Of a stretch of 8,663 nt of DNA, positions 4,229 through 8,663 are shown one piece after another. The first letter of the stretch is position 1. Each line of letters starts with the position of its first letter. A program made the position numbers and the translations under genes. This stretch comes from an uncultured Pseudodesulfovibrio sp. (lineage in GTDB: Bacteria; Desulfobacterota; Desulfovibrionia; Desulfovibrionales; Desulfovibrionaceae). The stretch is taken from positions 1-8,663 of the forward strand of contig CAMYLL010000092.1 of NCBI GenBank assembly GCA_947259235.1, given 5' to 3'. The notes beneath the pieces are model-generated. The model ran no database searches. It was not told the DNA's origin and saw only the letters and a program-made list of their open reading frames with translations.

Positions 4229-4663
4229 ATGTCGTATTTTACCAGACGAGGATTCATGACATCGCCGGGCACACCTGCCGGAACAATCGCCGATGACAAC
4301 GCCGCCTACGGCCGCGGATTCGGGAACGATCGCTGCCAGGGGGCGGGACAAGGCCGCAACCGCGCACAGGGCAACGGCCAGGGTAACGGCCAGGGACTCG
4401 GCATGAATGGCGGCAACGGCGCAGGACGCCGTGGCATGAACGGACAAGGCGCATGCAGGCGGGGAGATCAGCCCCGGCCCTTTGCCTCGCGGCTCATGGA
4501 CCGGGCCATGGCCCAGGACACAGAGGACTTCAGCCCTGCCGCAGGCCAGTTTGCCGGAAACGGATACGGCCCCGGAGCCGGATGCGGAATCAGGCGGCGC
4601 ATGCGCCGCAGGGGTAACGGTCCCGCACAAGGCGGTTCCGGCATGAACAACACAAACTTCTGA
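4229..4663 (+). CDS. Low-complexity Gly/Asn/Gln/Arg-rich protein with three cysteines, unknown function
   Basis: I do not recognise a defined fold. The 144 residues include 35 Gly, 13 Asn, 10 Gln and 19 Arg but no Lys, His, Val or Trp, giving a clearly basic protein (about 8 acidic residues). Three isolated cysteines (C36, C76, C119) each sit in a Gly/Arg-rich setting, and an RRRMRRR block lies at 122-128. GNGQGNGQG at 48-56 is a small internal repeat. There is no signal peptide or membrane segment. The start is well supported by CGGAGG five bases upstream of the ATG. The gene is 39 bases ahead of a NifX-like gene. Small Gly-rich, Cys-containing proteins (for example the DUF5320 type) are often encoded beside MTH1175/NifX-like proteins, and I infer a similar partnership, but the usual DUF5320 N-terminal motif is not evident. 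Disorder and metal or nucleic-acid binding are possible, unproven ideas. Confidence 0.72.
   Translation: MSYFTRRGFMTSPGTPAGTIADDNAAYGRGFGNDRCQGAGQGRNRAQGNGQGNGQGLGMNGGNGAGRRGMNGQGACRRGDQPRPFASRLMDRAMAQDTEDFSPAAGQFAGNGYGPGAGCGIRRRMRRRGNGPAQGGSGMNNTNF
4371..4394 (+). repeat. Two tandem 12-base units inside the low-complexity gene
   Basis: GCAACGGCCAGG (4371-4382) is followed directly by GTAACGGCCAGG (4383-4394), one base different. The units encode the GNGQ-GNGQ run (residues 48-55). Being a multiple of three, copy-number change would keep frame, so this is a likely site of length variation between strains. Confidence 0.8.
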
Positions 4664-4702
4664 CCAACAACATATGGCCAGCACAATGCAAGGATACGTA
4701 CA

Positions 4703-5071
4703 ATGAAAGTAGCAGTGACCAGCGAGGGGCCAACCCTCGACTATCAGGTGGACCCCCGCTTCGGCCGGGCTGGCGGATTCGTCATCGTGGACACCGAGAC
4801 CATGGAAACAACGTACATCGATAACGGCAGCTCCCAGGTGCGGGCACAGGGCGCGGGAATCCAGGCCGCGGAGAACGTGGCCAACGCGGGAGCGCAGGTG
4901 ATCCTGACGGGCTACGTCGGCCCCAAGGCGTTTACCGCTCTGGCCGCAGCCAAGATCAAGGTGGGTCAGGACGTGGACGGCATGACCGTGCGCGAAGCCG
5001 TCGAGAAATTCATCCGAGGCGACGTGCCCCTTGCCGACGCGCCCAACGCCCAGGAAGGCGGCGGAAAGTAA
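4703..5071 (+). CDS. NifX/NifB-C-terminal-like (MTH1175-type) dinitrogenase iron-molybdenum cofactor family protein
   Basis: A 122-residue single-domain protein of the family that binds iron-molybdenum cofactor precursors or other metal-sulfur clusters in NifX, NafY and the C-terminus of NifB, and the Mo-Cu cluster in the 'orange protein' of sulfate reducers. The family marks are clear: MKVAVTSEG at the start, DPRFGRAGGFVIVD (17-30), GAGIQAAENVANAGAQVILTGYVGPKAF (from about 50) and DGMTVREAVEKF near the end. It has no cysteine, which is usual for the family. AAGGA at 4690-4694, eight bases before ATG, supports the start. The gene lies 39 bases after the low-complexity gene and ends at a strong hairpin, so the two probably form a bicistron. 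No nif genes and no Mrp/ParA-type ATPase partner are visible, so nitrogen fixation is not implied. The residues after about 110 (AQEGGGK end) are a loose, non-conserved tail. Confidence 0.9.
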   Translation: MKVAVTSEGPTLDYQVDPRFGRAGGFVIVDTETMETTYIDNGSSQVRAQGAGIQAAENVANAGAQVILTGYVGPKAFTALAAAKIKVGQDVDGMTVREAVEKFIRGDVPLADAPNAQEGGGK

Positions 5072-5077
5072 CGACCG

Positions 5078-5115
5078 GGAACACGGCGGACCGGAGTTCC
5101 GGTCCGCCGTGTTCC
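5078..5115 (+). terminator. Very strong hairpin after the NifX-like gene, terminator without a good T tract
   Basis: Bases 5078-5094 and 5099-5115 form a perfect 17-base-pair stem around AGTT, starting six bases after the stop codon. Position and stability fit a transcript end. The bases after it (TTAAGC) do not form a T run, so intrinsic termination may be weak; it may instead act as a 3' stabiliser or work together with Rho. It separates the NifX-like unit from the HD-domain gene cluster. Confidence 0.75.
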
Positions 5116-5349
5116 TTAAGCATTCTCAGCTTCAGTCTCCTGCCGCAGGCGGGAACCCCGCGTGAATCCCCAGATATTCCCGCCCGAAAGTCGTCTTCAC
5201 TCCTCCGCTTGGCCCCTGGCGGCATCCTCCCCGGCAAAAAGGCATCTTTCACGACCCGGCGCGCTTTATTTTTCCCACGCCTGCTGGTAGGTTGAATCCG
5301 CCGGACGCAATGCCGCATCCTGCCAGACGCACCCCCCGACGTATCCACG
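5116..5349. other. Intergenic stretch before the HD-domain gene
   Basis: I see no gene, RNA or repeat in these 234 bases. The promoter for the envelope cluster should lie here, and the one AT-rich patch (CTTTATTTTT near 5266-5275) is the likeliest area, but I cannot name convincing -35 and -10 boxes. No Shine-Dalgarno site precedes the ATG at 5350. Confidence 0.5.
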
Positions 5350-5991
5350 ATGAGCACCGCCAAGCCCTCTTCCACGCCCGAGCCCGAATTCCGCTCGCCC
5401 CTGCCTCCGCCGCCGCCCATGGTCTTCGACCCCGGCCTCGACGTGCCGGACGATGCCCGGTGCAGGGAGTTCTGGAGCAGCTTCGACATGCTCGACAACG
5501 TGGCCCAGCACAGCATGATGGTGGCTCAGGTGGCCACCTTCCTGGCCAGACGGGGCAAGCAGATGGGCCTTGAACTGGACGTGCCCACAGTACGCGCCTC
5601 GGCCATGATGCACGACATCGCCAAGTCCTATTCCATCCGGCACGGCGGCAACCACAGCCAACTGGGCGGCGCGTGGACCGTGGCCCTCACGGGCAACCCG
5701 GCCATCGCCATAGGCGTCACCCACCATGTCTTCTGGGCCTTCGACATGGACCTGACGAAATATTTCACGCCGCTGGCCGTCATCTACGCGGACAAACGCG
5801 TCCGCCACGACGGCCTGGTCAGCCTCGAATCCCGGTTCACGGACCTGATCAAGCGATACGGCGTCAACGACTATATTCGCGGGCGGATCGAGACCACGAA
5901 AACCCAGGCCGTGGATCTCGAAACCCTCCTGAGCAACACCCTTGAGGTAGATTTGAATGCATGTGATTTTGATAGCGGGCGGCTGGTCTGA
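5350..5991 (+). CDS. HD-domain phosphohydrolase family protein
   Basis: The 213-residue soluble protein belongs to the HD superfamily of metal-dependent phosphohydrolases, which cleave phosphate bonds in nucleotides or related compounds; the substrate here is unknown. The metal-binding signature is complete: H54 (NVAQHS), H88-D89 (MMHDIAK) and D148 (YADKRV), with H102 and H125/H126 between them as likely second-shell residues. The N-terminus (about 1-24) is Pro-rich, includes five consecutive Pro, and is not part of the domain. No ribosome site precedes ATG 5350, and ATG 5419 (residue 24, MVFDPG) is an alternative start also lacking one. The 3' end overlaps ddl by 35 bases in another frame, so it heads the envelope gene cluster. 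A nucleotide- or cell-wall-precursor-related role is only suggested by that position. Confidence 0.88.
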   Translation: MSTAKPSSTPEPEFRSPLPPPPPMVFDPGLDVPDDARCREFWSSFDMLDNVAQHSMMVAQVATFLARRGKQMGLELDVPTVRASAMMHDIAKSYSIRHGGNHSQLGGAWTVALTGNPAIAIGVTHHVFWAFDMDLTKYFTPLAVIYADKRVRHDGLVSLESRFTDLIKRYGVNDYIRGRIETTKTQAVDLETLLSNTLEVDLNACDFDSGRLV

Positions 5992-6871
5992 CGAGCGCGA
6001 GGTATCGCTCTCGGGAGCAAGGAAAATTCATTCGGCCCTTGAAGAGCTGGGCCACGAGGTTGCCTTCTTCGACCCGGCCAGCGACTTCAAGAACCTGCTC
6101 AACGTGGCCCGCGACGCGGACTTCGCCTTCATCAACCTGCACGGAACCCCGGGCGAGGACGGCCTGATCCAGGCGGTGCTCGACAAGGCGGGATGCCCGT
6201 ATCAGGGCGCCGGGGCCGCTGCCTCCTACCTGGCCCTGAACAAGGCCGCCTCCAAGGAAGTATTCGAGGACAAGGGGATCGCCACGCCGGACTGGCAGTT
6301 CGTCACCCACACCCAGGGGCCGGATACCCCGCCGGAGCTTGAGCTGCCCGTTTTCGTCAAGCCCAACAAGGGCGGGTCGAGCCTGGGCATGAGCCTTGTC
6401 CGCACCGCCGAGGAGTTCCCCGCTGCCCTGGCCAAGGTCTTTGCCATGTGCCAGTCCGCCCTGGTGGAAACCTTCATCCCCGGCGTGGAGCTGACCTGCG
6501 GCATCCTGGGCGGCCGCCCCCTGCCCCTGATAATGATCACCCCCAAACAGGGCGCGCCCTTCTTTGACTACGAAAACAAATACGCGGCCGACGGAGCCGA
6601 GGAAATCTGCCCCGCACCAGTACCGGAGGAGATCACCAGCCTGATCCAGGCGCAGATGGTCACGGCCCACAACGCCCTGGGTCTGACCGGGTACAGTCGG
6701 GGCGACTTCATCCTCACCCAAGACGGCACGCCCTACCTGCTGGAAGTCAACACCCTGCCCGGCATGACCCCCACCAGCCTGCTCCCGCGCGCCGCAGCCC
6801 AGGCGGGCCTCTCCTTTGCCGAGCTCATCGCCGAGCTCATCCGCCTCGGGCTGGAAGAAAGGGGCCGCTAG
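5957..6871 (+). CDS. ddl: D-alanine--D-alanine ligase
   Basis: Ddl is the cytoplasmic ATP-grasp enzyme that joins two D-alanines for the peptidoglycan pentapeptide. The 304-residue protein is of normal length and has the full motif set: GGWSDEREVSLSG (8-20) with the substrate Glu E15, LHGTPGEDG (61-69), ATP-site lysines K96 and K135 (FVKPNKGGSSLG), GVELTCG with E179, ENKY with Y209, YSRGDF with R248/D250, the magnesium ligands E263 and N265 in EVNTLPG, and MTPTSLLP at the end. The Tyr in ENKY is the residue typical of D-Ala-D-Ala enzymes, not of the D-lactate ligases of vancomycin-resistant bacteria. ATG 5957 is preceded by GAGG (5944-5947) inside the upstream HD gene; the first residues (VILIAGG) are family-conserved, so the 35-base overlap is real. 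The stop is one base before the waaA ATG, so the cluster is co-transcribed. Confidence 0.97.
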   Translation: MHVILIAGGWSDEREVSLSGARKIHSALEELGHEVAFFDPASDFKNLLNVARDADFAFINLHGTPGEDGLIQAVLDKAGCPYQGAGAAASYLALNKAASKEVFEDKGIATPDWQFVTHTQGPDTPPELELPVFVKPNKGGSSLGMSLVRTAEEFPAALAKVFAMCQSALVETFIPGVELTCGILGGRPLPLIMITPKQGAPFFDYENKYAADGAEEICPAPVPEEITSLIQAQMVTAHNALGLTGYSRGDFILTQDGTPYLLEVNTLPGMTPTSLLPRAAAQAGLSFAELIAELIRLGLEERGR

Positions 6872-6872
6872 C

Positions 6873-8156
6873 ATGGCGTCGGCCATCGACGCGGCCCTGG
6901 CCGCCTACAATATCGGCTGGAAGTGCGCCATTCCGATGCTCCGGCTCAACCATCGCCTGCGCGACGGATGGGACCAGCGCACACTCGACGGCGGGCTGCC
7001 CGCCCCGGCCGACCTGTGGATACAGGCCGCCAGCGGCGGCGAGGCCTACCTCGCCTGGGAAGTGCTCAAGGACCTCTCGCCCCCGCCCGGTTCCTCCCTG
7101 CGCGTGCTCGCCACCACGGCCACGCGCCAGGGCTACGAAACCCTCTGCCGCGCGGCCGAGGACATCGGCGCGCGCAAATCCGGCGTGGCTGTCCAGCCCT
7201 GGTATTTTCCCTTTGACGCGCCGCAGATCATGCGCCGGGTGGTGGGCCACGTCCGTCCCCGCTGCGCCCTGATCCTGGAGACGGAAATCTGGCCCGGGTT
7301 CCTCAGCGCCTGCCGCTGCCACGGCGTGCGCGTGCTCCTGGCCAACGGCCGCATGTCCACCCGCAGCCTGGGCGGCTACATGGCCTGGCCCGCGTTCTTC
7401 CGCGCCCTTGCGCCGGAGCGCGTCATGGCCGTGTCCGAGACCGACGGCCGCCGCTTCGGCACGCTCTTCGGCCGCGAGCGCGTCTGGGTCATGCCCAACA
7501 TCAAGTTCGACCGGATGGCCACGGCCGGCCCCGTGACCAGAAAGAACAACCCGCTGCGCGACGTGATCCCGCCCAAGGCGGATTTCGTGGTCTTCGGCTC
7601 AGTGCGCAAGGAGGAGCTGGCAGAGGTCGCCTCCCTGGCCGCCGGACTCATGCGGGCAAAGCCCGCCACCGTCATCGGCCTGTTCCCCCGTCACATGCAC
7701 CATATCGAGCTGTGGCGGAAGGGACTGCACCAGGCCGGACTGACCTGCGTCCTGCGCTCCGGGCTGAGCGGACCGGCCGCACCGGGCACGGTGATCCTCT
7801 GGGACACCTTCGGCGAGCTGGTCCCGGCCTACGGGCTGGCCGCGGCGGCCTTTGTGGGCGGCAGTCTCGCCCCGCTGGGAGGGCAGAATTTCCTGGAACC
7901 CATCACCTGCGGAGTGACCCCGGTCATCGGCCCGTACTGGAAGAACTTTGCCTGGGTCGGCGAGGAATTGTTCGAGCAGGGGCTGGCCGTCCGGGCCGCA
8001 AACGCCCCGACAGCCCTCGACGCCCTGACAAAACTCCTCGACCACCGCCCCTCCCGCGCCGATGTCGCGACCAGGGGACGGGCGTACATCACGGACCGCA
8101 CGGGCGGGGCCCGGGCCGTGCGCAAACAGGTTGCTGATTTTCTCAATAAGGATTAA
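6873..8156 (+). CDS. waaA: 3-deoxy-D-manno-octulosonic acid (Kdo) transferase WaaA/KdtA
   Basis: WaaA transfers Kdo from CMP-Kdo to lipid A precursor at the inner face of the cytoplasmic membrane, building the inner core of LPS. The 427-residue protein is a GT-B glycosyltransferase of family GT30. Recognisable segments are WIQAASGGEAYLAWEV with the catalytic Glu E57, LATTATRQG, ILETEIWPGFL (133-144), LLANGRMSTRSL (155-166), VMPNIKFD, PRH (272-274) and the C-terminal FVGGSLAPLGGQNFLEP (327-342). The phosphate-loop region reads FGSVRKEE where many members have ASTHEGEE, a lineage-like variation. The N-terminal membrane anchor (about 5-25) is only weakly hydrophobic. ATG 6873 is chosen because GAAAGGGG lies eight bases upstream and the ddl stop is at 6871; an in-frame ATG at 6816 lies inside ddl and adds a Ser-rich, non-family stretch. 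The next gene, kdsB, makes the donor substrate. Confidence 0.95.
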   Translation: MASAIDAALAAYNIGWKCAIPMLRLNHRLRDGWDQRTLDGGLPAPADLWIQAASGGEAYLAWEVLKDLSPPPGSSLRVLATTATRQGYETLCRAAEDIGARKSGVAVQPWYFPFDAPQIMRRVVGHVRPRCALILETEIWPGFLSACRCHGVRVLLANGRMSTRSLGGYMAWPAFFRALAPERVMAVSETDGRRFGTLFGRERVWVMPNIKFDRMATAGPVTRKNNPLRDVIPPKADFVVFGSVRKEELAEVASLAAGLMRAKPATVIGLFPRHMHHIELWRKGLHQAGLTCVLRSGLSGPAAPGTVILWDTFGELVPAYGLAAAAFVGGSLAPLGGQNFLEPITCGVTPVIGPYWKNFAWVGEELFEQGLAVRAANAPTALDALTKLLDHRPSRADVATRGRAYITDRTGGARAVRKQVADFLNKD

Positions 8157-8177: not shown

Positions 8178-8663
8178 ATGAGCAAATTCCCCGAGTGTCA
8201 CGGCATCATCCCGGCGAGGTACGACTCCTCCCGGTTCCCGGGCAAACCCCTGATCGAGATCAAGGGCAAGCCTATGTTCTGGCACGTCCATGATCGGGCG
8301 AGCCGATGTCCTCAACTCAAGAGCGTCACCCTGGCCACGGATGACCAGCGCATCTTCGACGCCGCCGAAGCCCTCGACGACCGCGCGGCATCACCAGAGC
8401 GGCACGGACCGTGTCCTTGAGGCCGCACGCACGCTTGACATCGACCCCGGGGCCGTGGTGGTCAACATCCAGGGGGACGAACCCTGCCTGGCCCCGGAGA
8501 TGCTCACCGAGCTGCTGACGCCCTTCTCGTCCTGCGATGTCCGGGTGGCGACCCTGGCCACGGCCATCGGCCCGGAAGAGGCGCTCTCGCCTGACCGGGT
8601 CAAGGTGGTCCGGGCGAGCAATGGCCGCGCCCTGTATTTCTCACGCGCCGTGGTCCCTTTCGA
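8178..8663 (+). pseudogene. kdsB: CMP-Kdo synthetase, frameshifted, and cut by the window end
   Basis: KdsB couples Kdo to CMP from CTP, giving the donor used by WaaA. The frame from ATG 8178 encodes clear KdsB sequence: [26 protein letters not shown] and [16 protein letters not shown]. It then runs into unrelated residues and stops at TGA 8418-8420. KdsB sequence resumes in a different frame from about 8380 ([48 protein letters not shown]) and is open to the last base. Comparison with E. coli KdsB, where about six residues lie between the matching EAA and MT, suggests that roughly five residues are missing at the junction, as if about 14 bases were lost near 8376-8382. A 14-base loss produces exactly the frame change seen. 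The start lies 21 bases after waaA, without a strong ribosome site. Because the enzyme is normally needed for LPS, an assembly or sequencing error is as likely as a true mutation. Confidence 0.88.

Follow-up and report, generated by a model that had tools for sequence, protein, structure and literature searches.

The kdsB gene, which encodes CMP-Kdo synthetase (KdsB, 3-deoxy-manno-octulosonate cytidylyltransferase), appears at the end of the window (the whole stretch of DNA analyzed, 8,663 nucleotides) as two well conserved halves in different frames, separated by a break with exactly 14 bases fewer than each of 29 aligned loci of the same genus. The break is probably an error of assembly, or of low-coverage consensus calling, near a contig end. 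In such a case, 14 bases would have been dropped, during assembly or consensus calling, from a gene predicted to be an ordinary and functional one for CMP-Kdo synthetase, and the kdsB of the true chromosome would be unbroken. The window is the entire, complete contig C92 (8663 bases) of the draft genome G000, which consists of 2,928,646 bases in 474 contigs and is 82.78% complete and 0.5% contaminated. The nearest relatives of the draft are Pseudodesulfovibrio, the name borne by several close protein hits. As the contig stops at position 8663, it truncates kdsB and leaves about two thirds of the gene in the window; the break lies 285 bases upstream of that end.

The first part of kdsB (8178..8378, forward strand) comprises 67 residues from the ATG at 8178, after which its frame runs into 13 codons of unrelated sequence and ends with the stop at 8418–8420. 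The second part (8389..8661, forward strand) comprises 91 residues in a different frame, starts with HHQSGTDR and is cut by the contig end. Both match KdsB families and, on the profile NF003952, they occupy consecutive, collinear segments: positions 2–63 of 250 for the first half (E 3.2e-23) and positions 72–163 for the second (E 1.3e-27). The cut-off of Pfam PF02348 was passed by both halves, while the NCBIfam cut-offs were reached by neither half alone, the C-terminal third of the protein being beyond the contig. These matches bear out the first-pass annotation, made from the letters of the window, in that the halves are both conserved and lie in different frames. Compared to known KdsB (TIGR00466, NF003952, PF02348; solved structures 1gq9, 3k8d and 2y6p), the gene in the window is thus collinear in both halves, but it lacks 14 bases, changes frame and has its last third off the contig. 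As assembled, a single open frame through the CTP-binding domain is absent from kdsB, due to the frame change and the 14 bases fewer at 8378–8389. The missing piece had been ascribed earlier to the substrate-binding segment. This is to be corrected: with the domain limits of the Aquifex KdsB enzyme, taken from PMC3149649, and by transfer from that enzyme, the missing residues would fall within the N-terminal CTP-binding domain.

The size of the gap was determined by alignment with the kdsB genes of close relatives. A DNA search matched 35/35 genomes of the same genus, and the alignment set was formed by the 29 best same-genus loci (L008–L036), six further same-genus matches without a locus being left out. 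The stretch aligned to window positions 8340–8420 was 95 bases long in 29/29 loci, versus 81 in the window, and the interval showed no further difference in length in any of the 29. The earlier estimate of about 14 lost bases was right. When a single 14-base gap was tried at every position, the best placements were after 8378 and, equally, after 8379, and placement after 8388 was almost equal; because of the latter, the exact site is ambiguous within about 8376–8389, and the break is given here as 8378..8389 (forward strand). A perfect short inverted repeat overlaps the missing columns in 23 of the 29 relatives. This palindrome was discounted as evidence, since such repeats are common in the same 29 loci (1 to 12 per roughly 530 bases).

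The condition of kdsB in the rest of the genus was examined with the protein P0001 as the query. P0001, a full-length protein of 246 amino acids that spans the break, was retrieved from about 5.8 billion proteins by scoring the 8000 with the most words in common. Its cluster comprises six sequences encoded on three contigs, the longest of which has 63,782 bases. P0001 passes the TIGR00466 cut-off (220.2 versus 155.2 bits), and its residues 10–243 align with 1gq9 (E 1.9e-53). P0001 is identical to the window at 154 of the 158 residues compared (64/67 in the first part and 90/91 in the second); as four residues differ, it need not come from the same strain. With this query, kdsB was found in one stop-free frame in 35/35 other genomes of the genus, with identities of 69–85%. 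Among the genus genomes, only G000 gives kdsB in two pieces, which match P0001 with 85% identity (residues 1–78, extending past the break) and 96% identity (residues 71–166). With the gap set after 8378 or 8379, residues 68–72 of the intact P0001 are absent from the window, in agreement with the loss of about five residues noticed at first. Since all 35 other genus genomes searched keep kdsB in one frame, an error is the most likely origin of the break.

The same comparison bears on the least credible of the readings, in which programmed ribosomal frameshifting, or another form of recoding, would join the two halves during translation. The halves are conserved, on the same strand and one +1 step apart, which speaks for this reading, but a shift cannot supply the five absent residues, and 35/35 relatives need none. 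Moreover, no slippery heptamer was seen by eye around the break, and the junction lacks a stop codon, the zero frame continuing for another 13 codons, which also counts against recoding. The rejection of programmed frameshifting in the first-pass annotation, on the grounds that a shift cannot restore missing residues, is hence upheld by the absence of 14 bases.

Concerning whether the gene is in use, its product would serve the known pathway in which Kdo is first activated with CTP and then transferred to lipid A by WaaA. Directly 5′ of kdsB, an open frame of 429 amino acids (6867..8156, forward strand), considered here for context only, is attributed to waaA, the Kdo transferase gene: it is above the cut-off of Pfam PF04413, and its best E value with the NCBIfam PRK05749 subfamilies is 1.7e-59, yet under their cut-offs. 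Elsewhere in the draft, kdsA (C163) and lpxC (C172) are single open frames over their family cut-offs. As kdsA, lpxC and waaA are all in open frames, the Kdo pathway looks in use. The dN/dS ratios of the first half of kdsB versus five relatives were 0.092–0.185, compared to 0.094–0.225 among those relatives, and the ratios of the second half were 0.091–0.241, compared to 0.063–0.313, several of the dS values in these comparisons being near saturation. Constraint on both halves is about the same as in the relatives. It is therefore unlikely that kdsB is long dead.

The possibility that a second, intact kdsB works elsewhere in the genome, leaving the C92 copy free to decay, is extremely unlikely. 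Neither PF02348 nor P0001 revealed a second kdsB in the sequence of the draft (82.8% complete). Besides the two kdsB halves, PF02348 matched two places on C9, one on C55 and glmU on C167, and P0001 gave only a 36% match on C9. The whole-draft search thus gave only other or distant nucleotidyltransferases, and the second copy proposed at first lacks support. Such a copy could sit in the missing part of the draft, and one relative, G005, carries a second KdsB-like protein with 41% identity; but G005 is the only one of the 35 relatives in which a second match covers almost the entire protein, constraint is normal on both C92 halves, and the C92 gene lies directly 3′ of waaA, an order shared with the relative G015, in surroundings that are syntenic with those of three relatives. 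The second protein of G005 (G005:C70:5662-6393) is nearly full length; at a guess, it might belong to the pathway of a capsule or of another Kdo-type sugar.

A real, recent deletion of 14 bases that inactivated kdsB, be it in a single strain or in a minor part of the population sampled, is the other reading to be weighed, and it is considered unlikely, though much less so than recoding or a second copy. The cells concerned would have a deep LPS defect or be about to be lost. The sequence is clean on both sides of the break, with no other length differences in the alignment, and a recent loss would leave dN/dS untouched, both of which suit a deletion. On the other hand, kdsA, lpxC and waaA remain open frames, kdsB is lost in none of the 35 other genus genomes, and Kdo is described in PMC3149649 as essential for a stable outer membrane and for the viability of the cell. 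Very unlikely, in turn, is the stronger proposition that a free-living sulfate reducer has truly lost CMP-Kdo synthetase, keeps kdsA, lpxC and waaA, and survives with a Kdo-free lipid A or by a route independent of CMP-Kdo. Such a loss of kdsB, if true, would be an unusual case in nature of a bacterium freed from its Kdo requirement.

The frequency of frame breaks in the draft was surveyed with codon-scored genes of the relative G004 (952 in 1.2 Mb), which were compared with 81 whole or partial contigs of G000. Orthologous genes covered were 115 on 15 of 41 contigs, plus 48 on 15 of 40 smaller contigs, which amounts to 163 genes (kdsB included) and 171,951 aligned coding bases on 30 of the 81 sampled contigs. 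Seven breaks were called in six of the 115 genes, and one more in the 48 genes of the smaller contigs. Of these eight calls, that of kdsB alone survived inspection by eye, the others being in leaders or badly called N-termini (six calls in five genes, plus L273). In the draft G015, used as the control, three breaks were called in 3 of 125 genes, likewise in leaders or badly called N-termini, and none was genuine by eye. An earlier gene set, based on longest ORFs, had given seven breaks in G000 and nine in G015; it was dropped because it contained antisense shadow ORFs. As only the kdsB break was upheld among 163 sampled genes, such breaks are few in the draft, and the idea of an assembly riddled with them was rejected. 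By the same token, and with 0/125 in the control, kdsB is an exception in the assembly to which it belongs. This scarcity counts somewhat against an error as the origin of the break and argues, in favor of a real deletion, that the assembly is not generally error-rich. Besides, a clean loss of 14 bases is not the commonest kind of error of short reads, which also counts against an error.

The gene glmU, met in passing, was not part of the 163-gene sample, as the G004 stretches used for it did not include the position of glmU. It is frame-broken as well: in locus L245 (G000:C167) it runs over 4683–5994 with a break near 5777, the corresponding coordinates in L006 being about 1459–2770. The parts of glmU are a net 11 bases too close in comparison with 6/6 relatives, as calculated by hand from alignment coordinates, and the draft contains no other glmU of full-length appearance. 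Bacteria that make peptidoglycan cannot do without GlmU, which is needed for the precursors of both peptidoglycan and LPS; for this reason, the glmU break can hardly be real. It suggests that the draft has dropped short coding stretches elsewhere too, and it is a point against a real deletion in kdsB, given that the two breaks are in the same draft. The glmU break is 519 bases from the end of C167 (6296 bases), and the kdsB break 285 from the end of C92 (8663 bases). The nearness of both to contig ends is weakly suggestive.

The error preferred here as the origin of the kdsB break can be set against published rates. According to the figure cited in PMC6436528 (MISAG/MIMAG), benchmark single-cell assemblies have about 2 indels per 100 kb, and with that figure a handful of such errors would be unsurprising. 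G000 resembles the draft assemblies with indel errors described there in that it is fragmented, its kdsB break is near a contig end and glmU is broken too. It differs in that the loss amounts to 14 bases, while the figure cited comes without size classes, and in that the sampled genes show few breaks; also, the benchmark figure concerns single-cell genomes, whereas G000 is presumably a metagenome bin. Among the three explanations offered at the outset (a sequencing or assembly error, a strain-specific LPS defect or a second kdsB copy), the first one is favored by the 35/35 intact genes, by P0001 and by the glmU break, while the last one is not sustained. The genes kdsB and glmU, both needed for the cell envelope, seem to be broken in this one draft though they are whole in the relatives searched, and this serves as a warning: to infer gene loss from drafts of this kind would mislead.

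A search for the remainder of kdsB on another contig of the draft found none: a query taken downstream in G015 (the end of kdsB plus the next gene, carA-like by eye) matched nothing but the final 100 bases of C92.

Two other regions of the window gave minor observations. At 4229–4663, upstream of the gene for a Nitro_FeMo-Co protein, there is an ORF of 144 amino acids, rich in Gly and Asn, which had no match to any Pfam family at E 0.001; only a patch of 37 bases in it was matched, in one of three relatives whose synteny with the window covers both flanks. At 722–1714, an ORF joins a CheW domain to a response-regulator receiver domain in a CheV-like arrangement; its neighbors are the end of a dihydrouridine synthase gene on one side and, encoded on the other strand, the presumed hypE together with hypD on the other side.
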